From positions 20,486-84,485 of IMG/VR virus record IMGVR_UViG_3300028840_004314: DNA of 64,000 nucleotides. The stretch is one strand, 5' to 3'. The position numbers and the translations under genes were made by a program. The first letter of the stretch is position 1. The number at the start of each line of letters is the position of its first letter. Below are positions 37,614 to 64,000 of this stretch, in pieces. This DNA comes from a virus. Below the pieces are notes generated by a model. That model was not told where the DNA came from, searched no databases, and saw nothing but the letters and a program-made list of their open reading frames with translations.

Positions 37614-37991
37614 GTGGATAGAAGAAACTTCTTAAAAAGGTTAGGCGGTACCATTGGGGCTGCTTTAATAGGCGTTAACCTTTTGGAAAAGGAAACTCCT
37701 TGGTCCTCCCCTAGTTCACTTCGTATCGTAACATTGGATTCTTTAGGTTCCAGTGTTTCTACTTGTGACGTGTGTCCTCTCAAAGCCAAAAACAAATGTA
37801 TGTGTCTTTGTAGACTGGGACGTAAACAAAACCCCGAAAACATTGAAAAGTACGAAAGATGGGTAGTCACACAATACGATTCTACCACTAAAGTAGCCAC
37901 TGTGTCGGAGACCTTTCCAAAACATATTGGAAATGGTGTATACGAATTCAACGTACAAACCCTAGAGGAACAAAATGCCAAAAAATCTTGA
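37614..37991 (+). CDS. Tat-signal-like Cys-cluster protein
   Basis: A 125-residue protein with a GTG start 7 bases after AGGAG. The N-terminus MDRRNFLKRLGGTIGAALIG has the twin-arginine pattern (R-R-x-F-L) and a hydrophobic segment, as in Tat-exported folded proteins. After it, CDVCPLKAKNKCMCLCRLGR clusters six Cys and may bind metal or a cluster. The C-terminal part is mixed. If exported, a host Tat system would be needed. No family is recognised. Confidence 0.6.
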   Translation: MDRRNFLKRLGGTIGAALIGVNLLEKETPWSSPSSLRIVTLDSLGSSVSTCDVCPLKAKNKCMCLCRLGRKQNPENIEKYERWVVTQYDSTTKVATVSETFPKHIGNGVYEFNVQTLEEQNAKKS

Positions 37992-38538
37992 AGTTAACGA
38001 TCGTCACAAAATCATCGCCTCCCGTTTAGAGGAGTTAGTTCCACCCAAGTCTTCCAGACGACAACGGAAACTGGTGATCGATGTGGGATGCTACAAAGGC
38101 CGGCTGGGTTATCTTCTTCGAAAGATGAAGTACAAAACCATCGGATTCGACATTAGCGTGAAGTGTGTTGATGAATGTCGGAGATTGGGACTTAATACCT
38201 TCATCAAAGACATCACAAAACAACCATTGAAGGCCTGGCCCAAGGCGGATGCTGTTGTATGCTCCGAATTGTTAGAGCATCTTACAGAGCAAGGATTTCA
38301 TGTGGCGGTCCGCAACTTGGATTCCATGCTGGATTCGGGTGGAGTACTAATCATCACTGTGCCCGAGAAAGAGGAAGCCATCGAGAAACATTCCTTCCAC
38401 AAAAGGTATGTAACCTCCAAAATGATCAAGGAAGCCTTCCCAGAGTATGATTTATTGGAGGAATCCTTGGTTTACAAAAACGAGGGAGCCAGACTCCGTA
38501 ACAGTGCCAACCTTATGCTGGTATTCAAGAAACAGTAG
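37975..38538 (+). CDS. Class I SAM-dependent methyltransferase
   Basis: A 187-residue protein. LVIDVGCYKGRLGYLLRKMK is motif I (D-x-G-C-x-x-G); TIGFDISVKCVDECRRLGLN is the acidic motif II region; DAVVCSELLEHL and DSGGVLIITVPEKEEA complete a methyltransferase domain. Overlaps the Tat-like gene by 17 bases. The substrate is unknown. Confidence 0.8.
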   Translation: MPKNLEVNDRHKIIASRLEELVPPKSSRRQRKLVIDVGCYKGRLGYLLRKMKYKTIGFDISVKCVDECRRLGLNTFIKDITKQPLKAWPKADAVVCSELLEHLTEQGFHVAVRNLDSMLDSGGVLIITVPEKEEAIEKHSFHKRYVTSKMIKEAFPEYDLLEESLVYKNEGARLRNSANLMLVFKKQ

Positions 38539-38546
38539 GAAGTTAC

Positions 38547-39245
38547 ATGCCATTCTTTAATTACGACGATCTGATCAAGCTACAACTCCGCCGTTTGAAA
38601 AAGAAACACATCAACATGGTGGAGATAGGGGCCTTTGATGGTGTGTACCTTCAACAGTACGTGGATTGGTACAGAGGAATCACAATACATGCCATAGAGC
38701 CCTGTAAACGGAATTACTCCGCCTTGGAAAGGAGATATAGGAAATGTCGCCAGGTACATCCAGTTAACTGTGCCATATCCTCCAAGGAAGGTAAACGGGA
38801 CTTGTTTATAGTGGATCATCCTAAGTATGAAGGGACCAAGTCCTCCCAATCCAATAGTTTGTACAAGAGTTTCGCCCAGAGTAAGAAGTCATCCAAAACA
38901 CGAGTAGAACAAGTGGAGACACTTACACTGAAACACTTTTGTGCCCGTTACAAGATCGAATTACTGGACCTGTTGAAATGCAACTGTGAGGGTGGGGAGT
39001 ACGACATTTTTACCGACACACAGGCCACAGTGGATATCCTGTCACGTACTAACATAATTGACATCGTGATCCATGGGAAAAGTCCTTTGTTTATCGAGGA
39101 AAAGTACCGTCGCAAAAAAAGGGAAATCAACGCCTTGTTAAAGGATCTAGGATTTGTTATCCTGGTGGGGCCAGATCTACAAACAATAAAGAAGCTACCA
39201 TACTACCACATTCGACAAGTGTGGACTAGGGATAAATTGAAATGA
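38547..39245 (+). CDS. FkbM-family methyltransferase
   Basis: A 232-residue protein. NMVEIGAFDGVYLQQYVDWY is the FkbM SAM-binding motif, IHAIEPCKRNYSALERRYRK the second, and VNCAISSKEGKRDLFIVD with VETLTLKHFC and LLKCNCEGGEYDIF the family signature (L-K-x-D/N-x-E-G-x-E). FkbM proteins O-methylate sugars and natural products. In the sugar island it probably caps or tailors a glycan. Confidence 0.87.
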   Translation: MPFFNYDDLIKLQLRRLKKKHINMVEIGAFDGVYLQQYVDWYRGITIHAIEPCKRNYSALERRYRKCRQVHPVNCAISSKEGKRDLFIVDHPKYEGTKSSQSNSLYKSFAQSKKSSKTRVEQVETLTLKHFCARYKIELLDLLKCNCEGGEYDIFTDTQATVDILSRTNIIDIVIHGKSPLFIEEKYRRKKREINALLKDLGFVILVGPDLQTIKKLPYYHIRQVWTRDKLK

Positions 39246-48845: not shown

Positions 48846-49430
48846 CTAGAAGTTCAAGAATTCCTGGCGTGTTGTTGCACTATCCTTCATGGCCCCTAAC
48901 ATACAACTTGTAACTGTGATACTGCCAGGCTTTTGTACACCCCTTCTGGACATACAGAAATGCTCGGCTTCAATTACAACTCCCACTCCTTTCGGTTCCA
49001 TCTTATTGAAGAGACAATGTGCCACCTGATTAGTAAGGCGTTCCTGTATTTGGAGGCGATTGGCGAAGCTATCCAGTAACCGGGCCAACTTGGAGATACC
49101 CACTACATTCTTGTTAGGAATGTATCCTATTTTGGCCTTTCCAACGAAGGGAACAATATGATGGGCACAGAAGCTGGTGAAGTGAATGTCCTTTACTACT
49201 ACCATTTGGTCGTAGGCTTCTTCCGAGAATGTAGTAGTGAGAATTTCTTCGGGATTCTGTATGTATCCTCGACCGAAGTACTCCACCCAGGCCTTGGCGA
49301 CTCGTTCCGGGGTATCCATGAAGTGTTGGTTGTTTAGATCTTCTCCTAGGGCCTGTAGGAATTGTATAGTGGCGACGGCTATTCCTCGGTACATTTCATT
49401 GGCTTTTTCTTGTCCAGTATTATCTGACAT
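48846..49430 (-). CDS. folE: GTP cyclohydrolase I
   Basis: A 194-residue protein started at the ATG 6 bases after AAAGGAG; an upstream start would add residues unlike FolE. TSFCAHHIVPFVGKAKIGYI carries zinc ligands Cys88 and His91, and EHFCMSRRGVQKPGS carries Cys159. GISKLARLLDSFANRLQIQE is the family core. It makes dihydroneopterin triphosphate from GTP, the first step to 7-deazaguanine (and folate). In this phage the queE, queC and DpdA genes point to the former. Preceded by a possibly structured leader. Confidence 0.96.
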   Translation of the reverse strand: MSDNTGQEKANEMYRGIAVATIQFLQALGEDLNNQHFMDTPERVAKAWVEYFGRGYIQNPEEILTTTFSEEAYDQMVVVKDIHFTSFCAHHIVPFVGKAKIGYIPNKNVVGISKLARLLDSFANRLQIQERLTNQVAHCLFNKMEPKGVGVVIEAEHFCMSRRGVQKPGSITVTSCMLGAMKDSATTRQEFLNF

Positions 49431-49454
49431 GGATGGCTCCTTTGTAGTTGAAAA

Positions 49455-49686
49455 AATAAACAGTGGATGACATTGTTGCGATTGCATAGAGAGAATCAGT
49501 TGGCCTTGCACCAACCAGCTTGTATTCATCTCCTGAATACAGGATTATGAGATTGTCAAAGAACTTACACCTAGCTATTAGCTTTGCTATCATTTTCTTC
49601 GGAGCTTCTGAGCATCGTTTTTGTCCTTATCCCAATATGGTAGTCGGGGGGACGATTAATGTAAAAGACTCCATCCACTGTTTATT
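49455..49686 (-). ncRNA. Candidate structured RNA in folE leader
   Basis: A perfect 15-base inverted repeat, AATAAACAGTGGATG (plus strand, 49455-49469) and its complement at 49672-49686, bounds about 200 bases. The minus-strand RNA could close this as a long stem. Inside are mutually exclusive hairpins: TGTATTC/GAATACA with AGGAGAT in the loop, or CCTG/CAGG with ATCT/AGAT. GTTGG/CCAAC can form another. A regulatory RNA for folE is suggested, but no known class is matched. Confidence 0.4.
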
Positions 49687-49697
49687 ATGAGGCAACG

Positions 49698-50051
49698 CTA
49701 GGCCGCGGATACAAAACCTAATCCACGTTCCGCGGCGTAAGTGAAGAAGGCTTTCCATATGGCTTTTCTATCGTCCTTTGGGAACCTATCGTGTAGGGCC
49801 CTTGTTAAGGCCACCTTCTTACCAGTGAACTTGTTGTAGGAATCGTTGGGATGTAGTTTGGCCATAGCGGACCATACCTCCCTTCCAGTTTCGGCGTCCA
49901 TTATCCGGCAGATGGTGTCTGTTCGGTGGTTCTCCAGGGTGGGGCGGGGACGTTTGGGATCCTTCTTGGAGAGGATATTGGTAATTGTCTTCCGCCGAAC
50001 TTCAAATACAATATGAAATTTTCTACCATTCGATACTGTTACTTCAAACAT
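49698..50051 (-). CDS. Unknown basic protein
   Basis: A 117-residue protein with AAAGGAGG 6 bases before the ATG. A beta-rich start (VSNGRKFHIVFEVRRKTITN) and a helical Lys/Arg-rich C-terminal half (KKVALTRALHDRFPKDDRKA). Lies between folE and primase. It may bind DNA or RNA (basic character), but this is unproven. Confidence 0.5.
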   Translation of the reverse strand: MFEVTVSNGRKFHIVFEVRRKTITNILSKKDPKRPRPTLENHRTDTICRIMDAETGREVWSAMAKLHPNDSYNKFTGKKVALTRALHDRFPKDDRKAIWKAFFTYAAERGLGFVSAA

Positions 50052-50063
50052 GACTAGCCTCCT

Positions 50064-50249
50064 TTATATGGTGTGGTTTCCAAGAATTCTCAATCGATCA
50101 ACTAGATTTCCCAATTGATAACGTAAATCACGGATGGTGGATTTTAGTTGTGTGATTTGTGATTCCAGTTGTTCTATTCTTTCCTCGTTGGCTGGAGTAA
50201 CATCCTTCACCCGTAATTCCGTCGAGTTCCTGTTTGGATTCTTCATCAT
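50064..50249 (-). CDS. Small coiled-coil protein
   Basis: A 61-residue protein with ATG overlapping the primase stop by one base; a second ATG follows immediately. Residues 20-55 form a heptad-like coiled coil (RIEQLESQITQLKSTIRDLR). Probably a small oligomer-forming partner. Function unknown. Confidence 0.5.
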   Translation of the reverse strand: MMKNPNRNSTELRVKDVTPANEERIEQLESQITQLKSTIRDLRYQLGNLVDRLRILGNHTI

Positions 50250-51199
50250 TACCCTTTCAAGTACTCCGTCCGTTCTATAAGTTTCCTGGTGTTGGCGAAT
50301 CCAAAACTATCAGGATCGTCGTCCTCCGGGAATCTTACCACCTTTATTCTATCAACGAAAATCCGAAAAGATCGGGCCATTTTTTTGGCCAACCAATAGG
50401 CGTCCCCATCCCAAAGGAAAATCAACTCGGATGGTTGTAAAGTTCTGATTTGACGTTCCTGCTCCTTGGTGATATGGGTCCCGAATGTACACGTACTACC
50501 CTTTCCCATTCTCCAGCTATCCAGTAGACCCTCTGTGAGAAGAAGAGGGGTTCGTGGTATGAGATCATCAAACAAGTACAGCGTATCATTGATACTAGTG
50601 GAGGATGTTTTTGTCTTCTGTGGAGATTTACCTGTAAGGTCCATTCCTTGAAACGCCAACATTTTATCCTGAAGGTAGATGGGAACTACCATTCTGTAGG
50701 CATATTCCCCGGAGAAGCAAAGGTGGGCTTCATACTCCACACAGGTTTTGATACTGATTTTCCTCTTGCGAAGGAAGGCGTTTAGGAATTCATTACTGGT
50801 ATTGGTAGTAATGGGTTTGGAACCCGCTGGAAGGGTAATTTCCTGGTCCTCCTGGTCCTCCTCCTCGTAAGTATCCTCTTCTGGGTATACTAAGCCCTTA
50901 ATAACGTCCAGGGCGGTCTGGCCCCTTTCTCCGCGTGTCTGTTTAGCCTTGATCTTTCTTTCAAAATAGGACCTACTATCCTCTGTAAGTACAGACATCA
51001 GGTAGGACAAGTGTCCTTTGTCACGGCACCTCCAACAACTGAAGAGGAGGGATTCAATAAAGATGCCACAGTGATTACTATGATCATCACAAAGTGGACA
51101 TCTAACGTTGATGGAACCCTCCGACACATTCTTACCGGACAGCCAGTATTGAATGCCGTAATCTTCCAACAACTCGATTATGATTTCTCGGTTTTCCAT
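50249..51199 (-). CDS. DNA primase, DnaG-type
   Basis: A 316-residue protein. CPLCDDHSNHCG followed by FSCWRCRDKGHL is the CHC2-type zinc-binding domain (residues 34-60). The toprim core follows: LLLTEGLLDSWRMG with the catalytic Glu223, and FLWDGDAYWLAKK with Asp264/Asp266. An acidic linker (YEEEDQEDQE) separates them. It makes primers for lagging-strand synthesis beside the replicative helicase. Shorter than cellular DnaG because it lacks the helicase-binding C-terminal domain. Confidence 0.9.
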   Translation of the reverse strand: MENREIIIELLEDYGIQYWLSGKNVSEGSINVRCPLCDDHSNHCGIFIESLLFSCWRCRDKGHLSYLMSVLTEDSRSYFERKIKAKQTRGERGQTALDVIKGLVYPEEDTYEEEDQEDQEITLPAGSKPITTNTSNEFLNAFLRKRKISIKTCVEYEAHLCFSGEYAYRMVVPIYLQDKMLAFQGMDLTGKSPQKTKTSSTSINDTLYLFDDLIPRTPLLLTEGLLDSWRMGKGSTCTFGTHITKEQERQIRTLQPSELIFLWDGDAYWLAKKMARSFRIFVDRIKVVRFPEDDDPDSFGFANTRKLIERTEYLKG

Positions 51200-51829
51200 T
51201 TAATCGTTGCCGCGGATGTAGTACATGTCGAAGATATCCTCAAAACAACTGGGGGCCGCACCGTACAATACATGCAGAATCTTTTTGCACACCGACTGTA
51301 TCTCCCACTGTGCGTGAGGGTCACAACGAAGTTTCAGAATGTGTCTCCACTCCCGAAAGTTGGCTGTTACTGTTATTTTTGTAAACCAGGCGTTGGGGAG
51401 AACAAAACGAGCATCCTCCTTTTTCACACCTTTATCCAATAGGGCGTTGTAGGTGTCAATACATATCTTCATGCAACTCTCAAACAACTCCAATTTACTT
51501 TTGTCCGAATCCACCAGCAAGGGGGAAGGAACAACGTAATTAGGACATTGTGAAGTGGTGGAACACTTTACATACCTTTGAGATTGTTGAGTGTAGGAGG
51601 CCAACCGATGACGTACTAACTGATGTGTCATAGCACGGGAGACTCCTTCTATGTGAAAAGTGGCGGAAGCGTGTTCCAACACGGATTCATGCCCTCGTCG
51701 TATCAGTCCCTTGATAAATTTTTCACGTTCCGAGTGGCATCGTGAAGGGGCGGAATCATAGGCCCCCCTTCCAGCTATTTCAATAACTTTTTCAGCGTTT
51801 TCAGTTACTTGTACCATAGTCACACTCAT
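51200..51829 (-). CDS. thyX: FAD-dependent thymidylate synthase
   Basis: A 209-residue protein started at the ATG 6 bases after AAGGAG. RHRLASYTQQSQRY is the ThyX motif RHRxxSxxxxSxR. HESVLEHASATFHIEGVSRA is the flavin/dUMP-binding lead-in. It makes dTMP from dUMP with methylene-tetrahydrofolate and FADH2. It boosts thymidine supply during phage replication. Its stop abuts the primase start. Confidence 0.95.
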   Translation of the reverse strand: MSVTMVQVTENAEKVIEIAGRGAYDSAPSRCHSEREKFIKGLIRRGHESVLEHASATFHIEGVSRAMTHQLVRHRLASYTQQSQRYVKCSTTSQCPNYVVPSPLLVDSDKSKLELFESCMKICIDTYNALLDKGVKKEDARFVLPNAWFTKITVTANFREWRHILKLRCDPHAQWEIQSVCKKILHVLYGAAPSCFEDIFDMYYIRGND

Positions 51830-52097
51830 CACAGTCTCCTTCACATGGGGAGTTTTCCACGGGTCCGAATGGGGAATCCAATTCTAGAACGTTGTCTAGA
51901 TACAATTTCATCCCCGGTTGTAGTTTATGCATAATCTCCAAATAGGCGGCCCGGGCCTCCTGTTCTGTCATAAAGGTAAACAGAATTTGGCATAGGGATA
52001 GTTGCTGATCGAAGATGATTTGATTCTTGAATGCGTACCACCCATTACACTTTTCCAGATCTACACACTGTTGTTTTGACCAAACGATCATACTCAT
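51801..52097 (-). CDS. Unknown protein with C-terminal Cys pairs
   Basis: A 98-residue protein with TAGGAG upstream. The N-terminus MSMIVWSKQQCVDLEKCNGW and a mostly helical middle precede SPCEGDCDECDYG, a Cys/Asp-rich end that could bind metal. It overlaps the thyX start by 29 bases. No family is recognised. Confidence 0.45.
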   Translation of the reverse strand: MSMIVWSKQQCVDLEKCNGWYAFKNQIIFDQQLSLCQILFTFMTEQEARAAYLEIMHKLQPGMKLYLDNVLELDSPFGPVENSPCEGDCDECDYGTSN

Positions 52098-52106
52098 TTA
52101 AAGCTC

Positions 52107-52436
52107 CTACTTTTCCCAACGATGTTTATTCTTTTTCCACTCGATCATATCCCCCAACTCCCTGGGCATTCTTGGTATCAGACGTTCCCATCTAGTACCT
52201 CTAGCCCCTCCTTCCATGAATTCGTCGATGTGGTCCTTGTCGTATCCTAAGGATTTTAGTTTACGACGGAGATTGTATAACTCCAGCTCGATTCCATTGA
52301 GCAGGAATTCTGACATATTTAGGAGGTCCCTAATATGTCTTTGTATTTCCCATTTGTTACAAAAGTCAACTGAACATGGTGGATCGATTTTTAATCGTCT
52401 ACGAATGAATGGTTTCAGTTTCCTTCTAGCCGCCAT
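52107..52436 (-). CDS. Unknown basic helical protein
   Basis: A 109-residue Lys/Arg-rich protein with TAGGAG upstream. Begins MAARRKLKPFIRRRLKIDPP, then helices with GIELELYNLRRKLKSLGYDK. It overlaps the end of the helicase gene by 11 bases. The basic start suggests DNA contact, but no domain is recognised. Confidence 0.5.
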   Translation of the reverse strand: MAARRKLKPFIRRRLKIDPPCSVDFCNKWEIQRHIRDLLNMSEFLLNGIELELYNLRRKLKSLGYDKDHIDEFMEGGARGTRWERLIPRMPRELGDMIEWKKNKHRWEK

Positions 52437-53910
52437 ACTTTCTCCTACTGAGCATGTCTAAAAACTTCTGCAAGTTGTCTCTTTCATTTCCTGCTCTTTT
52501 GGATGTAATTTCATCCACCGTTCCTTCCAGTACCAAATCAAAGTAGGTACAAGTTTCTATTTGTCCATCACGATGTATACGACCTTCTACCTGTATATTA
52601 TCAATGGCCCCAGGAGGGCGGTTTATGAAAATCATATTACTAGCCATCTGTGCGTTGATTCCTTCTCCACCACTGGCCGGGTGCATTACTAAACATTTGT
52701 ACTTTTCTTTCTCTGCCCAGTCGAAGAATTGTGTATCCTTGTTTTTGATTTCTCCACGTAAGGATCTGTAGGTGAATCCATGTTTCTTTAGGGCTTCTTC
52801 TATCAGCCGACCCTCTTCGATGTACAGATGTACAATAATGACTTTTCCTCGTATTTCCTCCAAAACTTCCAACATCAATTGGATTTTTGGATTTTTCTTC
52901 AAAGAAAGTAATCGGGTAGTAACTTGTTTACCAGCGTCGTCCCTTGAAAGAATGAATCCGGAACATATTTGTTGTTCCTTTTGGGCTAATTGTCCTGCAA
53001 GGAAGAAATTCTGTTCCTCCCTGGCTTCCTCCGCGTATCCCTGTAGCTCCATCATAGCGTCCTGTTGTTCCTTCGTGGGCCTAGCTGTTCTAACTTCGTA
53101 TACTTGTGGAGGAAGATCTAAACATTCCCTTTTTTCATACCGGAGTGTACACCAGGAGATTTTTTTCAGTAGTTTCTCCTTCGCCCCATCTTTTGGGACC
53201 CACTTAAACGGGCCATAGGGCCTGAAATATAATTCACGAAACGCCCAAAAGCTCCTTCCAAAGGTCTGTCCTTGATCCAATACTTCATACTCTGCCCATA
53301 AGTCCTCCAACTTATTGAAAGGAGTTCCTGTAAGACCAATAACGAAGGTTGATCGTTTAGTAAGTTGTTTGGCTATTCTCCGACGTATACCCTTCCTACC
53401 TTTCAGCTTGTGAACTTCATCGAAGATTATACAGTCAAAGTCATCAACAAAACTACGACGATTCACTACAATCCTATTCTTGTCCAATTCCTCCTCTGTA
53501 TCAGGATCTATCAGAGATTCCTTTTTACCGTAAATCCATTGAAGTCCCTCATAGTTTATCACATAGATTCTGGCTTTCTGACCAAGTTTTTTGATCCTGT
53601 CTTTGATTTTACCATCTAGTATTTTGTATGTCCAGGTTGTGTGTTGTTCGATTTGTGGTGCCCAGGTTTTTCTTACAATGGAGCTAGGAGCCACAACAAG
53701 GATTCGTTTGGCTCTCCATAACATAGCCATGTACAAAGCCGTAAGGGTTTTACCCGTACCAACGTCGTGGACAAAGGCGACTCTGTTTCTGTTTTTGTCC
53801 AAACCAAAGGCGAAGGAAACTAATTGGTGATGACGTGGTTCTGTAATGAAGTCCACGTCCGCGAACATCTTCCTTAGTTTGGAGGGTTTGAGGTTCTTGT
53901 AGTCGGTCAT
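52426..53910 (-). CDS. SNF2-type SF2 helicase/ATPase
   Basis: A 494-residue protein. Motif I is HDVGTGKTLTALYMAML (Walker A at residues 49-55), motif II CIIFDEVHKLKG, motif III GLTGTPFNKLEDLW, motif V ASGGEGINAQMASNMIFINR, and motif VI VEGRIHRDGQIETCTYFDL. These mark the SNF2-like branch of superfamily 2. It probably remodels DNA-protein complexes or assists recombination-dependent replication. Complete in length. It overlaps the DnaB-like gene by 4 bases. Confidence 0.93.
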   Translation of the reverse strand: MTDYKNLKPSKLRKMFADVDFITEPRHHQLVSFAFGLDKNRNRVAFVHDVGTGKTLTALYMAMLWRAKRILVVAPSSIVRKTWAPQIEQHTTWTYKILDGKIKDRIKKLGQKARIYVINYEGLQWIYGKKESLIDPDTEEELDKNRIVVNRRSFVDDFDCIIFDEVHKLKGRKGIRRRIAKQLTKRSTFVIGLTGTPFNKLEDLWAEYEVLDQGQTFGRSFWAFRELYFRPYGPFKWVPKDGAKEKLLKKISWCTLRYEKRECLDLPPQVYEVRTARPTKEQQDAMMELQGYAEEAREEQNFFLAGQLAQKEQQICSGFILSRDDAGKQVTTRLLSLKKNPKIQLMLEVLEEIRGKVIIVHLYIEEGRLIEEALKKHGFTYRSLRGEIKNKDTQFFDWAEKEKYKCLVMHPASGGEGINAQMASNMIFINRPPGAIDNIQVEGRIHRDGQIETCTYFDLVLEGTVDEITSKRAGNERDNLQKFLDMLSRRKYGG

Positions 53911-55388
53911 CTTCCACGTTCCCTTCTACGTCCGCGTCCTCTTCTCCTAGGTGGAGGGTCTTGTAAGTTGTTATCATTTCCCTCTTCGTTTCCTTCCACC
54001 AGGTCGTCATCCAGGGCGTCCTCGTCGGTTATACTCATGGGCCAACTAGCCAAACAGAATTGTCCAATGTCCAGGTTCTGTTGAATTTGGCACCCAAATT
54101 GATCATCTCCAGTTCTGTTAGCCACAATCCACATACTACAAGCGTTGTTTTGTGCCATGTCTTCGGTGGCCCCTAGTGCGATCATCATATCCACATTGGC
54201 TCCCTTTCGGATATCACCAGACGGATCCTTCTTGGTTAACCGGGCCTTGCCAATTGTGTCCCTTCTTCCTTGTGTACAGGTAAAGGTGAGAATGTTTCGT
54301 TCATCACAAATACGTTTGTGTTGTATGTAACACTCGTTGAGTTGATCCCTTTGTTGAGATGTGGATTTAGGTAGTTTCATTATGTCGATGTAGTCGTTGA
54401 TCAACACATCTGGAATGAAATTCTCATAGATTTCCAGGTAGTCCAGGAGACGTTCTATCTCCTCGATAGTACAGGAACCCATTGGGTATTTCTTTAGAAT
54501 CACTTGACTACCGCGTTTGCGTACTAGCTTTCGGAAGTGTTGTATCCTACTCAGATTGTATACGGAGTCCACGGAGTAGAAGGCTCTTTCGGTGATGACA
54601 CCAGTTTCACTTCTAGTGATAAATTCTACATCCTTAGGTTCATGGGCTCTGGTAAGGGCTCCGATCATCATGTCGTATCGACGCTCCAATTCCGCCAAGG
54701 TGATTTCGTGGGAAAGATGAAGCACATTAAGACCACGCATGATGGCCCTTTTCGCCATATGATTCAGGCACCAGGATTTAGTTCCCTTGAGGGGACCCAT
54801 AACACATATGAAATCCCCACGACAAAATACAGTATCCAATCGGTCGTCGATATGTGGGATCCCAGTTTTCAGTATCTCGTCAGCCTGCTCCGAATAGTAG
54901 GTTGGGATGGCCCCTTCCTGGTATTTCAATCCCGTATCATAATCCATGTGATCGTTTCGGAGAGTTTTATACATGAAATTTCTGGCGTCATCGAAACGCT
55001 CGGACTCCACCATCTTCACAAACTCAATGGCGGCGTCCTGGAATTCAATCCGCTTTACAAAGTCCCCTACACGCTTTAGGATGTATTGAGAATCCGGCGG
55101 ATGGAGTTGTTGTATTTTACGTAGGTACGCCAGATAATCCTCCCTGATCAGCGGATCCACCTTACGTTTGTTCAAGTACCGAGATAGTTCGTCCCCAATG
55201 TGATTTGTAATCGGTTTACCAAACTGGTTGAAGTACCTTTGGCAGATTGAAATCAGATTTTCGGTGATTTCTGAATCGAAATACTCAGGTCGAATAACGC
55301 CCTTAGTTGCCAACAGGAACTGTTTATCGACGATACTGAGATATACAAAACAATCCTGTATGTGTTGCGTTAGATCGTGTTTACCCAT
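53907..55388 (-). CDS. Replicative DNA helicase, DnaB-type
   Basis: A 493-residue protein. Residues 1-140 resemble the DnaB N-terminal helical domain; residues 180-420 are a RecA-like core with VMGPLKGTKSWCLNHMAKRA, IDYIDIMKLP-like Walker B (VLINDYIDIM), and SQQRDQLNECYIQHKRICDE. The P-loop reads GPLKGTKS, so the usual Gly before Lys is Thr. The C-terminus is acidic and then Arg-rich (RRRGRGRRRERG). It unwinds DNA at the fork and pairs with the primase gene nearby. Confidence 0.87.
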   Translation of the reverse strand: MGKHDLTQHIQDCFVYLSIVDKQFLLATKGVIRPEYFDSEITENLISICQRYFNQFGKPITNHIGDELSRYLNKRKVDPLIREDYLAYLRKIQQLHPPDSQYILKRVGDFVKRIEFQDAAIEFVKMVESERFDDARNFMYKTLRNDHMDYDTGLKYQEGAIPTYYSEQADEILKTGIPHIDDRLDTVFCRGDFICVMGPLKGTKSWCLNHMAKRAIMRGLNVLHLSHEITLAELERRYDMMIGALTRAHEPKDVEFITRSETGVITERAFYSVDSVYNLSRIQHFRKLVRKRGSQVILKKYPMGSCTIEEIERLLDYLEIYENFIPDVLINDYIDIMKLPKSTSQQRDQLNECYIQHKRICDERNILTFTCTQGRRDTIGKARLTKKDPSGDIRKGANVDMMIALGATEDMAQNNACSMWIVANRTGDDQFGCQIQQNLDIGQFCLASWPMSITDEDALDDDLVEGNEEGNDNNLQDPPPRRRGRGRRRERGR

Positions 55389-55928
55389 TTAGTTTTTGGA
55401 GTTCTTTCTTTTTGATCTTCGTGCGGATGTTCCAAAACCCGGCATGATTTGTTTCATATATTGTGGAAACAACACTCTCCATGTGGTATCCGAAATCAGA
55501 TGCCCAATACGAAGTCGTTTACCCTGGTTGATATACTCACCCTCCAACATAGTGAAGAGTTGTCGTACCACTTCGGAATACGACATCCTTGTACTTTTAC
55601 AGAAATCCGTTATACGGTCGTGACATTCCTCGAACTTGTAATACTCTTTGTCACTGGTTTGTAGGTCGTAACGTTTTTGGTTTAGGAATTTACGAGCGAA
55701 TCTGTCTGCTAGCTTCTTGACCGTTTCCACATCGGAGCCATGGTTCTCGAGCCAATTACGACGCCGCTTAGTTTTTTCCCGCTTCTTGGAACGTTCTTCG
55801 ATTGTATTGACCCTCATAACGGAGGCGCCAATCTTCACAGTACAGTTGATGTCGGCGATCCAATCTCCTGCTTCGTTTTGTTTGAGACTCTTGTAAACCG
55901 TGTCACTTAGTTTCATCTGTATCAACAT
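55389..55928 (-). CDS. Unknown basic protein, first gene of replication operon
   Basis: A 179-residue protein started at the ATG 6 bases after AAAGGA; a TTG 18 bases upstream is possible. Many Lys/Arg residues (RSKKREKTKRRRNWLENHGS) and a helical core (ECHDRITDFCKSTRMSYSEV). Right before the DnaB-type gene, it might be a helicase loader or single-strand binding factor, but no motif confirms this. Confidence 0.5.
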   Translation of the reverse strand: MLIQMKLSDTVYKSLKQNEAGDWIADINCTVKIGASVMRVNTIEERSKKREKTKRRRNWLENHGSDVETVKKLADRFARKFLNQKRYDLQTSDKEYYKFEECHDRITDFCKSTRMSYSEVVRQLFTMLEGEYINQGKRLRIGHLISDTTWRVLFPQYMKQIMPGFGTSARRSKRKNSKN

Positions 55929-56316
55929 AGGAGTTCCTTTCGCCAATCCTGTATATCAATGAAAATCATCGCAGAAACCGTGAAGGCGAAAAATTTTTTT
56001 GGAAAATCGCGATTTTCTTGGCCACGCCATTCTCTTTTTTTGATATATATCCATGTACCATGGACGACAGGACAGGGGACAGGGATATATATTTTTTTTC
56101 TAGTCTTTAGTCTATTAGGAACTAATAGATCATAGCCTTTAAAACATACCTGAAGGTATGTAGGCGTGGTGTTCACCACCACGCGTTGTTGATTGGATTT
56201 TTCCCATAATTGTACTGAAATAAAAACTTGAAATTTTTTCAAATTTCCTGTATCATAGAAACTTGGACCAGATATCTGTTGGTGTACAGAAAGAATTTTC
56301 ATGTAAGGGGTTGATG
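55929..56316. promoter_or_regulatory. Divergent control region, possible replication origin
   Basis: No gene is present. The region is AT-rich and packed with inverted repeats: GAAAATCGCGATTTTC (56002-56017), CCATG/CATGG (56051-56063), ATATATATCC with GGATATATAT (56043-56092), CTATTAG/CTAATAG (56112-56128), ACATACC/GGTATGT (56144-56161) and GCGTGGTG/CACCACGC (56164-56184). It lies between divergent operons (helicase one way, queE the other). Inference: promoter/operator cluster, possibly also an origin. Confidence 0.6.
56228..56256 (+). promoter_or_regulatory. Sigma-70-type promoter for queE
   Basis: TTGAAA (56228-56233) and TATCAT (56251-56256) are 17 bases apart, each matching the consensus at 5 of 6 positions. 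Transcription would start near 56263, giving a leader of about 50 bases before the queE ATG. Confidence 0.75.
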
Positions 56317-57030
56317 ATGTCACAATTGAAGGTGTACAGTATCTTTGATTCGATTGATGGTGAAGCTAACGCCTTTGGTGGAGCGGGAGAGCCTTCCACT
56401 TTTCTTCGTCTGGCTGGTTGTAACTTGAACTGTGCCTATTGTGACACAAAGTACGCCCTGAGTTTGGAATCCGGGCACAGCTACAATGTGGACAGTCTCA
56501 TCAACACCCTGGTCATCAAAAAGAAACTTACTTTTACGGGCGGGGAGCCCTTGTATCAAGGACCACCCGTGGTGGAACTGATCACCGGTTTGATACGAAA
56601 GAATCCAGAAATCCGTATCACAGTGGAAACAAATGGGTCCGTTAACTTTGGTCAATATGGACTCCATCTTTTCCCAAAGAAGAATCTCCGTTTCGTTATG
56701 GACGTGAAAATGCCCTCCTCGGGCGTGGAGGTCCCTTGTGTATGGGACAATTTCGACATTTTAACAGAACATGACGCCGTAAAATTCGTTTGTTGTGATA
56801 TGGACGACGTAAATTTCATGTTCAATAACATTTTACGGAGCACAAGCAGTATATGCCCTGCTAAACGATACATCAGCCCTGGAATTGGGGAGCCTGGTCC
56901 TTTTCAATTGGAGTGGGCCACACAATTGGCTCAAATGGTGGGTGTTCAGGCGAAATTTGTACGGGCCGGGTTACATTTTAGCCTACAGATCCACAAGGTA
57001 TTATGGCCTCATGTGGAGGATGGGCGGTGA
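56317..57030 (+). CDS. queE: 7-carboxy-7-deazaguanine synthase
   Basis: A 237-residue protein. Of two adjacent ATGs, 56317 is 6 bases after AAGGGG and is chosen. The N-terminus MSQLKVYSIFDSIDGEANAF and CNLNCAYC (Cys35, 39, 42; C-x3-C-x2-C) are QueE features, with TGGEPL for SAM binding. The radical SAM enzyme makes 7-carboxy-7-deazaguanine from carboxytetrahydropterin, the product of QueD. QueD was not found in the window. Under its own promoter and first in the DNA-modification operon. Confidence 0.93.
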   Translation: MSQLKVYSIFDSIDGEANAFGGAGEPSTFLRLAGCNLNCAYCDTKYALSLESGHSYNVDSLINTLVIKKKLTFTGGEPLYQGPPVVELITGLIRKNPEIRITVETNGSVNFGQYGLHLFPKKNLRFVMDVKMPSSGVEVPCVWDNFDILTEHDAVKFVCCDMDDVNFMFNNILRSTSSICPAKRYISPGIGEPGPFQLEWATQLAQMVGVQAKFVRAGLHFSLQIHKVLWPHVEDGR

Positions 57031-57302
57031 GTAGGAAAAGTGAAAAAACTACAGATTGTGTCCACGTAATTGGACATTTTTATGGACTAAAGCGGCTCAT
57101 ATTGATAAATGAACGTGAAGAGTTAGTACAGTACTTTAAGGCCTACAGTACATCGATTTTTAAGCCAGTTGGAAAGAAAGTTGAAAAGGTAGTACAGTTC
57201 TTTGATAATCGACGAGGATACGGTGATTGGTTTAAGTATTGTCCCCGCTGTGGGGAGAAGTTGGATTGGTCCCGGATTAAACAGAATTTTGGTACTAAGT
57301 GA
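57027..57302 (+). CDS. Small zinc-ribbon protein
   Basis: A 91-residue protein. The preferred start is the GTG that overlaps the queE stop and stands 7 bases after GGAGG; an ATG at 57003 is possible but has no such site. CPRCGEKLDWSR near the end is half a zinc ribbon, paired with earlier Cys. Sits between queE and the repetitive protein. Function unknown. Confidence 0.5.
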   Translation: MSRKSEKTTDCVHVIGHFYGLKRLILINEREELVQYFKAYSTSIFKPVGKKVEKVVQFFDNRRGYGDWFKYCPRCGEKLDWSRIKQNFGTK

Positions 57303-57325
57303 AACATTTTAGGAGACAGTTGACC

Positions 57326-58081
57326 ATGGCAAAGAAGAAAGACAAACCTCAGACCCCTCCGCCCGCCGAAGATGACAAGTGCGAAGTTTTCGGGACCGGT
57401 TTTGATCCCGACAACAAGGAGTGTCAGGAGTGCGAAACGGAGTACGCTGACGATTACAAGCAGTGCAAGGAGTTGTGCGAGAAGGGTGACGAGCCCAAGG
57501 ACGCCCCCGAAGAGCCGGAACTTCCTGAGGAGGAGCAGGTAGAAAACCAGGAACCCGCTGAAGAGGCCGAGCCAGAAGAGGCCGAGCCCGAAGAGGCCAA
57601 GCCCGAAGAGGCCAAGCCCGAAGAGGCCAAGGACAAGCCCAAGAAGAAGGGCAAGAAGGGCAAGGCGGACGCCAAGGACACCAAGTCGGCGGAGAAGCCC
57701 AAGGACAAGCCCAAAGACAAACCCAAGGACAAGCCCAAGGACGATCAGAAGGCCAAAGACAAAGACAAGCCCAAGGACGATCAGAAGGCCAAAGACAAAG
57801 ACAAGCCCAAGAAGCCGGTAGTTCGTAAGGTTTGTCAGGCCATGATGAATGATGGCAACACCGAGGACGAGATCCTTACCGAGCTCCAGCGGATTTATGA
57901 AGAGGAGCTGGACAAGGATGAGGCGTTTGCCAAGAAGCGTGCCAGATCGACCTACAAGTCGGTCCTTCGTAAGAACAAGAAAGTCGCGGCGGCCGCTGAA
58001 CCCGAGACGGGTGACAATGATCCCGAGCCGGGTGACGGTGAAACCGACCAGAGCGATGAAAATACCAACGAGGCCGAGTAG
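57326..58081 (+). CDS. Low-complexity Glu/Lys/Pro-rich repeat protein
   Basis: A 251-residue protein started at the ATG after AGGAG. The N-terminal 50 residues hold five Cys (CEVFGTGFDPDNKECQEC). Then about five E-E-A-[KE]-P units, then KPKD/DDQKAKDKDKPK units, and a helical C-terminal domain (KVCQAMMNDGNTEDEILTEL). The coding DNA uses AAG/GAC/GCC nearly always, unlike neighbours, suggesting strong expression or a distinct origin. Charge-block pattern might condense DNA or form droplets. Function unknown. A strong terminator follows. Confidence 0.6.
   Translation: MAKKKDKPQTPPPAEDDKCEVFGTGFDPDNKECQECETEYADDYKQCKELCEKGDEPKDAPEEPELPEEEQVENQEPAEEAEPEEAEPEEAKPEEAKPEEAKDKPKKKGKKGKADAKDTKSAEKPKDKPKDKPKDKPKDDQKAKDKDKPKDDQKAKDKDKPKKPVVRKVCQAMMNDGNTEDEILTELQRIYEEELDKDEAFAKKRARSTYKSVLRKNKKVAAAAEPETGDNDPEPGDGETDQSDENTNEAE
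57560..57631 (+). repeat. Tandem 15-base repeats coding EEA[KE]P
   Basis: Five adjacent copies of GAAGAGGCC(G/A)AGCC(C/A), the last incomplete, inside the low-complexity gene. They can vary in number by replication slippage, keeping the reading frame because 15 is a multiple of 3. Confidence 0.85.
57740..57811 (+). repeat. Tandem 36-base repeats coding a 12-residue unit
   Basis: Two adjacent identical 36-base copies, each starting GACGATCAGAAGGCC, encode DDQKAKDKDKPK twice. Perfect identity implies recent duplication or ongoing length variation in frame. Confidence 0.85.
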
Positions 58082-58134
58082 GCCAACAGTACTGACATGA
58101 TCCCCGATTAGGTAGGTTGGGTGGTTCAGTTGCT

Positions 58135-58175
58135 CCGGTAGGGTCTAATGGGTGGGCCCTACCGGTTTTCTTTTT
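58135..58175 (+). terminator. Rho-independent terminator
   Basis: CCGGTAGGG pairs with CCCTACCGG around a 13-base loop, followed by TTTTCTTTTT. The stem is 9 bp and GC-rich. It separates the low-complexity gene from queC; transcription of queC must pass it or use another start. Confidence 0.85.
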
Positions 58176-58190
58176 GAAAGGGGTGAGATG

Positions 58191-58892
58191 ATGGCGGGTA
58201 CAATGACAGATAAGAGGGTGCTGTTGTTTTCAGGGGGGATAGATTCATTGGTGTCCTGGGAGTTTCTGGACAGACCAAAGTGCGTTTACTTCGATTTGAA
58301 GGTGGATTACTCGGAGAGGGAGAAGGTAGCTGTAAGAACCTTGGTTCCCAACGTCATCATAGACAATTCCTTGAATATGTCAGAACGCCAACAACGCGGA
58401 CATCTCGCCATCATTCCGTACCGAAACCTTCTGATGGCCATACAGGCCACTAAGTATGGAGATAACGTTTTCATAGGCGGGTTGGCTGATGACATCATGA
58501 AGGACAATGGACCCGCCGCCTACGCCAGTATGGAAATCATACTCAATCACTTATCTGAAACACATCAGAATTTCTCCGTACGTGGTGGACTTCCTGGTAG
58601 TATGACGAAGAGCCAGGCTGTGGGATGGTTTTTGAGGTATAGTAAGTTCAAGGACCCAGTGTATACCCTGGTTAAACATTCTGTGTCCTGCTACAGTACG
58701 GAGTCTAACTATTGTGGTAGGTGTAAATCCTGTTTTCGGAAATGGTTGGCACTAAGGGTCAATGGGATTGATATTCTGGAGTATGACAAGGATGCCATGC
58801 AGTACCATGTAAAACATATGTTTGAAGGATCGTGTCACCCGGATTTGGTGTTTGAAGCGGAGCGTTACGCCGTACCGTACATGAAAGGATAG
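58191..58892 (+). CDS. queC: 7-cyano-7-deazaguanine synthase
   Basis: A 233-residue protein started at the second of two adjacent ATGs, 7 bases after AAAGGGG. VLLFSGGIDSLVSWEFL is the PP-loop ATP site. CYSTESNYCGRCKSCFRKW supplies the zinc-binding Cys set. It turns 7-carboxy-7-deazaguanine into preQ0 with ATP and ammonia. With the DpdA-like gene next, preQ0 is probably put into DNA. Confidence 0.93.
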   Translation: MAGTMTDKRVLLFSGGIDSLVSWEFLDRPKCVYFDLKVDYSEREKVAVRTLVPNVIIDNSLNMSERQQRGHLAIIPYRNLLMAIQATKYGDNVFIGGLADDIMKDNGPAAYASMEIILNHLSETHQNFSVRGGLPGSMTKSQAVGWFLRYSKFKDPVYTLVKHSVSCYSTESNYCGRCKSCFRKWLALRVNGIDILEYDKDAMQYHVKHMFEGSCHPDLVFEAERYAVPYMKG

Positions 58893-58898
58893 TACAAT

Positions 58899-59870
58899 AT
58901 GTTAGAGAGGTTATACTGTGCCGGGGCCCTTCATACCAGTGGTTGGGACTTATGGGTGAAGGAGATGATTGAGACTGAGAGGATGTATGTTTTGGAGTCC
59001 TTTTGGTACGGTGGGTCCATAAAGAACAAATTCAATAAGTCTAAGCACTTCAAATTGTTTTTGGACTCTGGGGCCTTTTCCTGGTACAACTCTGTGACGA
59101 AAAAGGGCCAGGTTCCTACGGCGAAGGATAAACAGGAGTACATGGACAGGTACATCGCTTTCATCAAGGAGTTTCCGGATCGTTGGCATTGTTGTGCCAA
59201 CTTGGATGTTATTGGCGATCCAGAGCAGACTTGGAAGAACCAGAAGTACATGGAGGAACAGGGGGCTACACCCATTCCGGTGTTTCACTATACACACAAT
59301 CAGGCTGACATTCACAAGGAATCCGCGGAGTTTGATTACTTCATCCGATATATCGAGGAGTATCCCTATATCGCCGTGGGTGGTGGTGCCAGTAGTGGTC
59401 TTACGAGGGAGTCCTACGTCGAGCGGTTTGGCGATAAGGTGTTTGGTGAGATCGAGAACCGGGGATTGAAGACCAAGGTCCACGGTTTTGGAGTAACCTC
59501 CTTTATGTTGATGAAGCGGTACCCATGGTACAGTGTTGATAGTACCTCCTGGATTCAATATTCAGCCAATGGAAGGGTTCTTATTCCTCAGTTTGATTTG
59601 GAGGGAGAACCCATTTTTGATGATACACCAAATGCCATGTTTGGTAGTGCTGTTTCCAGGGAGATGGGACGTCACTTTGATCTTTGTCTCTCTGACATGG
59701 AACGGGAGAGAGTACATAGGTACTTTGATGAGCTTCATCCTTTGGTCAATGTTCCGGATCTGGAGAAGTATGACTACATCCGCAACTTGGCCAACTTCCT
59801 CTTCTTTGAGAATTTTGTTAACTCCACAAAGGGAACACAATCCGAGTTAAAAGGAAGGACGTTTTTCTAA
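58899..59870 (+). CDS. dpdA: DpdA-like DNA guanine transglycosylase
   Basis: A 323-residue protein. LFLDSGAFSWYNS (catalytic Asp56 region), CANLDVIGDPEQTW, PIPVFHYTHN, VGGG and VHGFGVTSFMLMKRYPWYSV, then DSTSW, follow the order of the tRNA-guanine-transglycosylase barrel in phage DpdA proteins. DpdA swaps guanine in DNA for preQ0 or a relative. It follows queC directly and its stop overlaps the sliding clamp start by one base. TGT-like enzymes acting on tRNA are an alternative, less likely in a phage DNA operon. Confidence 0.87.
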   Translation: MLERLYCAGALHTSGWDLWVKEMIETERMYVLESFWYGGSIKNKFNKSKHFKLFLDSGAFSWYNSVTKKGQVPTAKDKQEYMDRYIAFIKEFPDRWHCCANLDVIGDPEQTWKNQKYMEEQGATPIPVFHYTHNQADIHKESAEFDYFIRYIEEYPYIAVGGGASSGLTRESYVERFGDKVFGEIENRGLKTKVHGFGVTSFMLMKRYPWYSVDSTSWIQYSANGRVLIPQFDLEGEPIFDDTPNAMFGSAVSREMGRHFDLCLSDMERERVHRYFDELHPLVNVPDLEKYDYIRNLANFLFFENFVNSTKGTQSELKGRTFF

Positions 59871-60931
59871 TGAATCGAGTAGAACTGGTAGATAGATTGA
59901 GTATCGCGGCATCCTGTGTTGGAAACAGTAACCTTGTGAAGGAGTACAACTATCTGGGTGTGAGAGGCTCCAAAGTTACAGCCAACAATGGAGTATGCTC
60001 TGTGATGGTTCCTTTGGAGGATCCTGTCGGTTTTGTTGCCGCTGTTCCTGGGGTGGAGTTTGTAAGACTATTGAAAGACATGTCGGCCAAGGAGGTTTCG
60101 TTTGTGAAGGATGGAAACTCTCTTCAGGTGAAGAGTGGGAGGAGTAAGGGGGAGTTTGGTGTGTTATCGGAGATACCTGGGGCTCTGGATCACGATCCCA
60201 ACGGGTTGGCTTGGCACACTTTGGGGGAGGATCTTCGTACTGGGTTGTTGAAAGCCAGTATGTGTGTATCCAAGGACCTTCGCGGAGTTTTACGGGCTGT
60301 ATTGGTGGACGGGAAAAGGCTGATCGCCACCGATAGAAACAGGATCATTCGATACAACCTGGAGGATAAACATACACGCTTCATTCTACCGTTGGAGATG
60401 ATACGTCTTCTTGGTAAGTACAAGAAGGAGATTACCAAGATTTCCGAGTTGAATCCGGAGGACGGGCTTATCCGATTCCGCCATGAGTGTGGGGCCATCT
60501 TTACTACGCAGGTTCTTCAGGAGGACTACCCTGACTTGAATCCACACTTCCCGGACTTTGACAAACTGACTACCTTGGAGTTTTCCTCCGGCCGTAGAAG
60601 GTCCGAGGGTATTCATACCGTGGTGGAACGTCAATTGAATTTCATGAAGGAGGTAAAGGAGTTCGATAAGGAAACTGTGATTAACGTGGACGGGGACACA
60701 TGTACGTTGACGTCCTTGGATCACAACAAGGCCCAGCTGGTGGACACAGTTGCCTTGGGATCCGATACGGAGGAGGAGTTGGAGTTTACAGTCAACCTGA
60801 ATTTGTTGAAGGACGTTTTGGAAACTACCAGGATGTTTTACTTTGAGAAGTCCAAGGGTCTTATCGGATTCAAAACTGACAAATTTGAATACATCACCCT
60901 TACTAAAAGGAAACAGAAGGAGGAGAAGTAG
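59870..60931 (+). CDS. DNA polymerase sliding clamp, DnaN-like
   Basis: A 353-residue protein with three repeats of the clamp fold: N-terminal MNRVELVDRLSIAASCVGNS, a middle with MCVSKDLRGVLRAVLVDGKR and IATDRNRIIRYN (the DnaN-like A-T-D-x-x-R), and C-terminal KGLIGFKTDKFEYITLTKR, the usual final strands. It would tether the phage polymerase to DNA. Directly upstream of small DNA-repair-type genes and the polymerase. Confidence 0.8.
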   Translation: MNRVELVDRLSIAASCVGNSNLVKEYNYLGVRGSKVTANNGVCSVMVPLEDPVGFVAAVPGVEFVRLLKDMSAKEVSFVKDGNSLQVKSGRSKGEFGVLSEIPGALDHDPNGLAWHTLGEDLRTGLLKASMCVSKDLRGVLRAVLVDGKRLIATDRNRIIRYNLEDKHTRFILPLEMIRLLGKYKKEITKISELNPEDGLIRFRHECGAIFTTQVLQEDYPDLNPHFPDFDKLTTLEFSSGRRRSEGIHTVVERQLNFMKEVKEFDKETVINVDGDTCTLTSLDHNKAQLVDTVALGSDTEEELEFTVNLNLLKDVLETTRMFYFEKSKGLIGFKTDKFEYITLTKRKQKEEK

Positions 60932-62221: not shown

Positions 62222-64000
62222 ATGGGGTATGTTCAACCATTCTTTTTGGATGGTGGCGATATTGTGGAGCCTACACCTAGGAAACCTAGGAAACGGTCTG
62301 GTAGTAAGTCCAGCTCTGGACGTAAGCAATCCACAAAAAAGCCAGTGATACGTGATTGTAGTACATGTAAACTGGACCAACAATGCCGTACGCCGGAGAT
62401 GGACCTATACGGCGAAGGAGGGGCCGGTATTATGATCGTATCCCTTAGGCCCGGTTTAGAGTCCGACCGCGAAGGTAGGGCGGCCTTGGGATCCTCCTGG
62501 CTCTTGATAGGGGACGCCCTCCGGGCCCATGGGTTCAACCTTCGAAAAGACTGTATTAGTACAAATTTGGTTCTATGTAGACCCCCTTTCAATCCGGATG
62601 GCACTGTACGAGATCCTAGCGCCTTTGAGATCGAGTGTTGTACTCCTAAACTACACAAAGACATTTCTGACATCAAACCTAAGGTGATTATCGCTTTTGG
62701 ATCCCCGGCTCTCCAGGCGGTCGCGGGACATCCGGAGATGCCCAAGTTTAGTGTAACTAACTATCGTGGGCGTGTTCTTCCAATAAGGAGATGGAATGCT
62801 TGGGTGGGTTGTAGTTTTCATCCTAGATTTGTACGTATGACTCGGGATGACAACTTGTACACAGCTCATGAGGAGATGCTGATACGTGATGTGGGGGAGG
62901 CTTTAAAGTATTTGAACGAGCCACTACCGGAGGCTCTTACAGAGGATGGTAACATATGGCTCAAGGACGCCAAGGAGGCCAGGGACTACCTGTATAAGTT
63001 GGCGGATGATATTGATGGTCCTCCTGTAACTTTTGACTATGAGACCAATTCAAAGGATCCCTTTGAGGAGAATTTGGAAACACTATCTGTGTCGTTTGCC
63101 ACCACACCCAAGAAGGGGTATGGAATAGCATTATGTAGGGAGTGGAATGGGTGGAGTGATGATGAGCAGGATATGGTGGAGGATGCTCTTTGTGACTTTC
63201 TTACTAGTGCCAGACGTAAGGTAGTACAGAATTCCAACTATGAACAGCTGTGGTCCAGCCAGTTTTATGGTTGTAAGGTGAGAAACGTCATACACGACAC
63301 TATGTTGGGTAATCATGTAGTTTATTGTCGTAAGGGGTGTAACGGTTTGGATGAAATTACGTACGCCCTCACTGGAATAACCTACAAGAAGATGGTGGAC
63401 ATTCGGAATTTGAAGGCGGAACCACCCCAGAACGTCATCAATTACAACTGTTTTGACGTTCGTTACCAGATTATGGGTTATAAGTCCCAGAGACAGGTGA
63501 TGGAGAAACCTCAAAAGGACTTCTATGTGATGTGTAATCGTTCCTTACCTACGTTGGCCAGAATGTCCAACCGTGGAACGCGTATAGATGTCCCAAAGTT
63601 GAAAGGTTTTCAGGAGTCCTGTGCGGAGGAGTTGGATACAACTACAAGAAGGTTGATGAAATTAGATTGTGTCCATCAGTTCGAGAAGAAAAACAACAAA
63701 ACACTCAATCTGAACGCCAAACAGCAAATAGCCAGTATTGTGTTCGATATTCTAGGAGAGAAGCCCACCCGGTTCTCCAAGAAAACGGAAAACAGGTCCA
63801 TGGATAAGAAGGTGGTGGAAGAACTTTTGCTGGATCATAAACATGAGGAGACGAAGGAGTTTCTTACACTGTTGGATCATTACAATAGGTACGAGAGTTT
63901 CCGAAAACTGATCAAGAACTGGTTTGGTTTGATTGATCCCAATGGGTTCCTTCATCCATTGTTTAAGTTGCATGTAGCCAGGACGTACCGGTCCTCCTCC
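62222..64000 (+). CDS. Uracil-DNA-glycosylase-like / DNA polymerase A fusion, 3' partial
   Basis: The frame runs off the window; 593 residues are present. Residues 1-45 are basic. Residues 46-206 look like a family-4/5-type uracil-DNA glycosylase: CSTCKLDQQC Cys set, SWLLIGDALRAHGF, VIIAFGSPALQAVAG and SFHPRFV. Residues 268-420 are a 3'-5' exonuclease: VTFDYETNSKD (Asp272/Glu274), NSNYEQLW, HDTML and YNCFD (Tyr408/Asp412). The PolA palm follows (RTYRSSS near the edge). Klenow's Exo II Asp is Glu341 here. Fused UDG-PolA chains are known in some large phages. Confidence 0.85.
   Translation, partial: MGYVQPFFLDGGDIVEPTPRKPRKRSGSKSSSGRKQSTKKPVIRDCSTCKLDQQCRTPEMDLYGEGGAGIMIVSLRPGLESDREGRAALGSSWLLIGDALRAHGFNLRKDCISTNLVLCRPPFNPDGTVRDPSAFEIECCTPKLHKDISDIKPKVIIAFGSPALQAVAGHPEMPKFSVTNYRGRVLPIRRWNAWVGCSFHPRFVRMTRDDNLYTAHEEMLIRDVGEALKYLNEPLPEALTEDGNIWLKDAKEARDYLYKLADDIDGPPVTFDYETNSKDPFEENLETLSVSFATTPKKGYGIALCREWNGWSDDEQDMVEDALCDFLTSARRKVVQNSNYEQLWSSQFYGCKVRNVIHDTMLGNHVVYCRKGCNGLDEITYALTGITYKKMVDIRNLKAEPPQNVINYNCFDVRYQIMGYKSQRQVMEKPQKDFYVMCNRSLPTLARMSNRGTRIDVPKLKGFQESCAEELDTTTRRLMKLDCVHQFEKKNNKTLNLNAKQQIASIVFDILGEKPTRFSKKTENRSMDKKVVEELLLDHKHEETKEFLTLLDHYNRYESFRKLIKNWFGLIDPNGFLHPLFKLHVARTYRSSS

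Follow-up and report, generated by a model that had tools for sequence, protein, structure and literature searches.

Comparison with described phage 7-deazaguanine systems

The full phage gene set for 7-cyano-7-deazaguanine (preQ0), known as Hutinet group 2, comprises FolE, QueD, QueE, QueC and DpdA. Here we analyzed a window of 64,000 nucleotides from an uncultured tailed phage (bases 20486-84485 of the linear 84,485-base IMG/VR virus record IMGVR_UViG_3300028840_004314), in which four of these five genes were found in a record that stops inside a polymerase gene, and whose QueC belongs to a clade that lacks two tyrosines of the canonical enzyme. An initial annotation had placed FolE, QueE, QueC and DpdA in this DNA, and all four are indeed encoded there with family matches far above chance. 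The locus resembles that of phage CAjan, in which DpdA is likewise accompanied by FolE, QueE and QueC and an amidotransferase is lacking; however, the CAjan QueC falls in another clade and keeps Tyr35 and Tyr131, and QueD is not in the window's record. As in Enterobacteria phage 9g, which carries 2′-deoxyarchaeosine (dG+), and also in phage PSASB_03, dpdA lies directly before the sliding clamp and polymerase genes, but 9g differs in having QueD, FolE beside dpdA and a Gat-QueC fusion, whereas the window's record has no Gat domain. Campylobacter phage CP220, which has 2′-deoxy-7-amido-7-deazaguanine (dADG) in place of all guanines, resembles the window in that its QueC, too, departs from the usual substrate motif (reading FPDC in CP220), but the CP220 QueC keeps Tyr35 and Cys134 and lies outside the variant clade. 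QueCs of the window's own clade occur in Menderavirus, Bacteroides phage BS162P1, phage NCTB and gut phage MT835752, most of which carry FolE, QueD and QueE, and most a DpdA or a tRNA-guanine transglycosylase (TGT)-like gene; the Menderavirus types differ from the window in a TGT-like DSGGLQ protein instead of DpdA1, in INO1 and HAD neighbors, and in a QueD that may be distant. Finally, Cap9 of the type IV cyclic oligonucleotide-based antiphage signaling system (CBASS) shares the QueC fold and a similarly short architecture with the window QueC, but it keeps the motifs Y/FxQ(x)5E and YxDC (PMC13329287), and its gene is accompanied by one for a CD-NTase rather than by those for DpdA and QueE.

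The window QueC has a divergent active site

The queC gene (58188-58892, plus strand; probable start at 58188, as read from the sequence) encodes a divergent phage-type QueC of 234 amino acids (aa) that scored 40 bits against PF06508 (gathering cut-off 22), a family for which the QueCs of CAjan, Dp-1, Vid5, nt-1, HVTV-1 and CP220 score 156-251 bits. The protein retains SGGIDS, IPYRN, K141, SCY (Tyr189) and C(x)7CxxCxxC, the first cysteine spacing being 7 and not 8, but is without the substrate motifs YxQxHxxE and YPDC and has L35, V37, Y39, M131 and N134. Alignment of the variant QueCs showed that E42, R99-N100, D133, K165 and C188 are kept in 76/76 sequences, and that Tyr35 and Tyr131 are kept in none (0/76, and 0/77 in a second count); Cys134 is replaced by Lys in 65 of the 76 and His39 by Tyr in 52 of 77. 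The 76-member residue count omits the near-identical L049, L050 and L052, whose ATP loop reads SGGMDC. In E. coli QueC, the single mutations Y35A and Y131A each abolish function (PMC13329287). As a control, Tyr131 and Cys134 were found to be kept in 79/79 canonical phage QueCs; the conservation of Tyr35, Gln37 and His39 in these controls is not leaned on, because the search pattern partly selects for it. Phage QueCs with validated products also keep Tyr35 and Tyr131, with the exception of Phe131 in the dADG maker CP220. Cys188 is missing in 33 of the 79 control QueCs, and the QueCs of Edwardsiella phage ZHS (L006 8375-9259) and Pseudomonas phage PSASB_03 (L007 1289-2140) have lost the zinc cysteines and kept Tyr35 and YPDC.

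An AlphaFold2 model of the window QueC was obtained with a predicted local distance difference test (pLDDT) score of 91.6, and its sole Foldseek match below 0.001 was Cap9 of type IV CBASS (9nto_B, E 5e-6). By sequence, the variant profile was nearer to QueC than to the Cap9 structures (4e-13 vs. 1e-9). The YxDC and QatC motifs are missing from the window QueC and no partner gene (CD-NTase, QatB) stands beside it; in addition, the QatC profile gave no match for the window QueC, and the clade members tested reached at most 22.9 bits against a cut-off of 280.

Variant QueCs form one clade, mostly in the company of DpdA or TGT-type genes

When QueC or QueE of the window was used as a single query against viral contigs, no relatives were obtained, whereas a profile search did find some. 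The best phage relatives of the window QueC came from gut phages, Bacteroides phages, phage NCTB and Menderavirus, and a profile made from these matched 82 viral contigs, of which 80 were kept, compared with at least 570 viral contigs for canonical QueC in one scan. In a FastTree phylogeny of 73 variants and 41 other QueCs, the variants formed one clade (73/73 inside, 0/41 of the others; support 0.97, branch 0.87), within which the window QueC groups with its four closest relatives, L042-L045 (support 0.999). The QueCs of phages with proven 2′-deoxy-preQ0 (dPreQ0), dG+ and 2′-deoxy-preQ1 (dPreQ1) all fall outside it. A survey of the QueC family (PMC13329287) does not describe this clade, and on the literature covered, Cui 2023 (NAR) not included, we provisionally regard it as new; the Menderavirus paper notes only 'weak homology' of its que genes and reads the variant-QueC genes as queuosine genes (PMC9025141).

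The genetic context of the variant was compared among 58 distinct loci, the window counted. In 53 of them, the variant QueC had within 6 kb a gene for DpdA1 (40 loci) or for a TGT-like protein (13 loci), and 65 of 80 canonical control loci had a DpdA/TGT-type gene anywhere on the fetched stretch. FolE, QueD and QueE are carried by most variant-QueC loci, and no PF06508 protein other than the variant occurs in 24 of 26 records or in the window's record. Given this DpdA/TGT-type company and the lack of a second PF06508 protein in nearly all of these records, the variant apparently takes the place of QueC in a pathway for DNA modification. Fusion of the variant QueC to a HAD-type domain is seen in L042-L045, and elsewhere a HAD open reading frame (ORF) overlaps or adjoins the variant. 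HAD proteins of three families occurred in 25 of the 57 non-window variant loci vs. 1 of 80 controls, and INO1 in 9 of the 57 vs. 0 of 80, a contrast that we treat as a lead only: variant loci served to seed the profiles, these phages are relatives of one another, and the window contains neither a HAD domain nor INO1, nor does a glycosyltransferase gene adjoin its QueC.

Further genes were seen near variant QueCs. A family 2 glycosyltransferase gene lies upstream of the HAD-fused QueC in 4/4 of L042-L045 (Pfam-confirmed in L043 and L045). Alongside it, upstream of queC, L042, L043 and L045 encode a further radical SAM protein, and L043 and L044 encode a P-loop kinase. Myo-inositol-phosphate synthase (PF01658) genes are near the variant QueC in L095, L105, L106, L108, L113, L117, L118, L119 and L121, and these loci often also carry a small HAD protein. 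In L060 and L062, a Gat-QueC-type protein (full length in L062) is encoded together with a variant QueC that carries a D-R motif, and this pairing suggests separate roles for the two.

DpdA, QueE and FolE accompany the variant, and QueD is absent from the record

The dpdA gene (58899-59870, plus strand; phrog_887, 3e-47) encodes a predicted DpdA1-like DNA guanine transglycosylase with 37.3% identity over 77% to the DpdA of phage 9g and about 34% identity to that of CAjan. The residues D56 (DSGA), D103, H130, H195, S212, D214 (SVDS) and W218 are invariant in 19/19 aligned relatives, and thus both catalytic aspartates (D56, D214) and the DpdA1 histidine (H195) are kept throughout; a histidine near position 196 marks DpdA1 and is not in DpdA2 (PMC6884629). 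The best fold match of its AlphaFold2 model (pLDDT 81) was the tRNA-guanine transglycosylase 5egr (probability 1.00, TM 0.59/0.54, E 1.2e-3). QueE, a radical SAM 7-carboxy-7-deazaguanine synthase, is encoded at 56314-57030 on the plus strand (phrog_2076, 9.8e-29; Cx3Cx2C motif; PF04055 above cut-off), with 56314 as the probable start. FolE, GTP cyclohydrolase I, is encoded on the minus strand at 48846-49529 (PF01227, E 7.6e-66, 221 bits, above cut-off; phrog_2197, 3.6e-68), perhaps starting at 49430 (MSDNTGQ...), and both of its zinc ligand motifs, FCAHH and EHFC, were found in the translation. As first annotated, FolE lies in a divergent block, namely a minus-strand replication region at 42-56 kb of the window with primase, helicases and the thymidylate synthase ThyX (51200-51844, minus strand; PF02511, 4.8e-64). 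Since FolE shares this block with ThyX, a folate role for FolE is possible.

QueD had been reported missing from the window, and when the search was widened to the whole 84,485-base record neither PF01242 nor a phage QueD profile gave a match. In line with the initial annotation, which saw no QueF or amidine-forming enzyme, the record has neither a separate QueF nor an amidotransferase gene: GATase_6 was not detected, and with it the N-terminal amidotransferase of a Gat-QueC (archaeosine) is lacking, while PF14489 matched the FolE gene only, a T-fold cross-match that was rejected as a QueF candidate. We considered and dropped a QueD-less pathway as a real trait, given that QueD is carried by 9/9 comparison phage records, including a 114-aa QueD in gut phage MT835752; in several of these it lies tens of kb, sometimes more than 50 kb, from queC. 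QueD is also present on the 33-kb contig of one of the four closest relatives. With a record that stops within the polymerase gene, and with queD lying far from queC in other phages, the absence of QueD is weak evidence; on the simplest reading queD is located past the record end, with supply by the host as the alternative.

Gene organization and other features of the window

A contractile tail sheath gene (2.5e-74) identifies the phage as a myovirus by morphology. From 56.3 kb, a plus-strand block encodes in order QueE, two small ORFs, QueC, DpdA, the sliding clamp, three small ORFs and a uracil-DNA glycosylase/polymerase gene. The first small ORF (57003-57302, plus strand) has a CPRCG zinc-ribbon-like end, with no Pfam match and a match of only 15 residues in PHROGs (E 0.0043), and the second (57326-58081, plus strand), between queE and queC, encodes a protein with a Cys-rich N-terminus and Lys/Glu/Pro/Ala low complexity that matched neither Pfam nor PHROG. 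A repeat protein resembling this product, gp55 of phage phi38:2, lies near the queF and dpdA of that phage. An intrinsic terminator with a 13-pair stem and a T tract, TTTTCTTTTT, is located at 58135-58165 on the plus strand (fold z -2.84), between the queE unit and queC-dpdA-clamp. The gap between queC and dpdA is 6 bases, and the start of the sliding clamp gene (59870-60931, plus strand; phrog_947, 5.7e-27) overlaps the dpdA stop (TAATG). Given the terminator, the short gap and the overlap, queC, dpdA and the clamp gene seem to form a single unit, apart from that of queE. The uracil-DNA glycosylase and DNA polymerase I-type gene (62222-64000, plus strand) runs off the record end at 593 of about 885 aa; its homologs in L042, L044 and L045 are 883-888 aa, and therefore the record is cut inside this gene. 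The order queC-dpdA-clamp-polymerase is common to the window and L042-L045.

Two other observations were made along the window. A late-region sugar-decoration cassette at 31529-39245 (plus strand) encodes GT1 and GT2 glycosyltransferases, a CMP-sugar synthetase-like protein (CTP_transf_3), an SDR protein, a SPASM radical SAM protein, NeuB (1.1e-61) and methyltransferases including FkbM, which suggests phage-encoded synthesis of a nonulosonic-acid-type glycan. In addition, many short ORFs of the structural region, in the window (4733, 20319 and 21926) and in L001 at 159-4525 (159, 513, 2046, 3128 and 4211), share a near-identical motif of the type LLEAHRDLF(K/R)P close to the N-terminus.

Proposed pathway and identity of the modified base

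Together, these data make it likely that the locus encodes a real phage 7-deazaguanine DNA-modification pathway replacing some guanines. From the observed genes, catalytic residues, folds, operon order and QueC clade we infer the reactions, the source of QueD and the protection as follows, with the chemistry taken from Hutinet 2019 (PMC6884629). FolE would convert GTP to dihydroneopterin triphosphate, from which QueD, encoded past the record end or by the host, would form carboxy-tetrahydropterin, and QueE would then yield 7-carboxy-7-deazaguanine (CDG). The divergent QueC would activate the CDG carboxyl with ATP to give an amide-level or nitrile product, DpdA would swap guanine in the phage DNA for this product, and the modified base should block host restriction enzymes. 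Several points weigh against this pathway. The window QueC scored 21.1 bits against the QueC equivalog TIGR00364 (cut-off 150.3) and is thus not a canonical QueC by that measure, and QueE, with 135.7 bits (1.8e-39) against TIGR03963, is under the 260-bit equivalog cut-off. FolE is 7 kb off, near ThyX, and could serve folate, and QueD is absent from 84.5 kb, its supply by the host being hypothetical.

For the reaction of the variant QueC we tentatively put first, at somewhat short of an even chance, an enzyme that forms a carboxamide from CDG or acts on it as an amide ligase, leading to dADG or a decorated 7-deazaguanine in DNA. Its nearest solved fold is Cap9, which joins CDG to a protein N-terminus via an amide bond (PMC13279940), and a precedent is offered by CmoY, which carries out a comparable amide ligation with the carboxymethylcytosine of phage DNA as substrate (PMC12783734); these two parallels and the loss of the tyrosines make an amide-level product plausible. 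The replacement of the substrate-side motifs with retention of the adenylation and zinc sites, the similarly altered motif of the dADG phage CP220, the HAD and INO1 neighbors at other loci and the glycosyltransferase gene preceding QueC in the four closest relatives are consistent with such an enzyme. On the other hand, the sequence profile favors QueC over Cap9, the window QueC lacks such neighbors, the contrast with the controls is partly built in by the seeding of the neighbor profiles, and no amine substrate is known. It is rather unlikely, in our estimate, that the clade including the window QueC has given up preQ0 synthesis and instead couples CDG as an amide to ammonia or a different amine, with DpdA installing a 7-deazaguanine carboxamide unseen in DNA so far; in that case HAD, INO1 or the glycosyltransferase may be partners of QueC in some phages.

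An ordinary dPreQ0 pathway, in which other residues would let the divergent QueC go on making preQ0 for insertion by DpdA, is possible but doubtful. The gene company is that of proven dPreQ0 phages (FolE, QueD, QueE, QueC and DpdA, no amidotransferase; PMC6884629), the residues invariant among the variants would fit a retained reaction, and the Tyr found at position 39 in most of them might substitute for Tyr35 from a shifted position. Against this, both Tyr35 and Tyr131 are gone in 77/77 variants when either alanine mutation alone inactivates the E. coli enzyme, and they persist in the validated phage QueCs (bar the Phe131 of CP220), as Tyr131 and Cys134 do in the canonical controls. The initial annotation had favored deoxy-preQ0 as the likeliest product; this is not upheld as stated, since the window QueC lacks both tyrosines and stands outside the group of proven dPreQ0, dG+ and dPreQ1 QueCs. 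A boost of host functions instead of DNA modification, with FolE for ThyX-linked folate, QueE and QueC for tRNA queuosine and DpdA as a tRNA transglycosylase, is very unlikely: FolE does lie near ThyX, DpdA is a TGT-fold enzyme and the Menderavirus genes were read as queuosine genes (PMC9025141), but the window DpdA belongs with the DNA-type enzymes of phages (phrog_887; 37% to 9g DpdA) and is coupled to the sliding clamp, and CAjan without dpdA has no DNA modification (PMC6884629).

An amide-level base in the DNA (dADG or an N-substituted carboxamide) is accordingly ranked as the leading candidate, at close to an even chance; dPreQ0 is distinctly less probable, 2′-deoxy-CDG (dCDG) or some other base improbable, and the lack of any DNA modification more improbable still. 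Cui 2023 reportedly names DpdL, DpdM and DpdN together with dDG and dCDG.

Predictions of the 7-deazaguanine in a phage are drawn from its genes, and a QueC present with no amidotransferase is taken as dPreQ0. If phage QueC consists of two clades with different active sites, this rule breaks down for a portion of viruses. By analogy with described systems, protection of the phage DNA from restriction is plausible (Hutinet 2019, PMC6884629), and new bases would bear on which restriction and defense systems a phage escapes.

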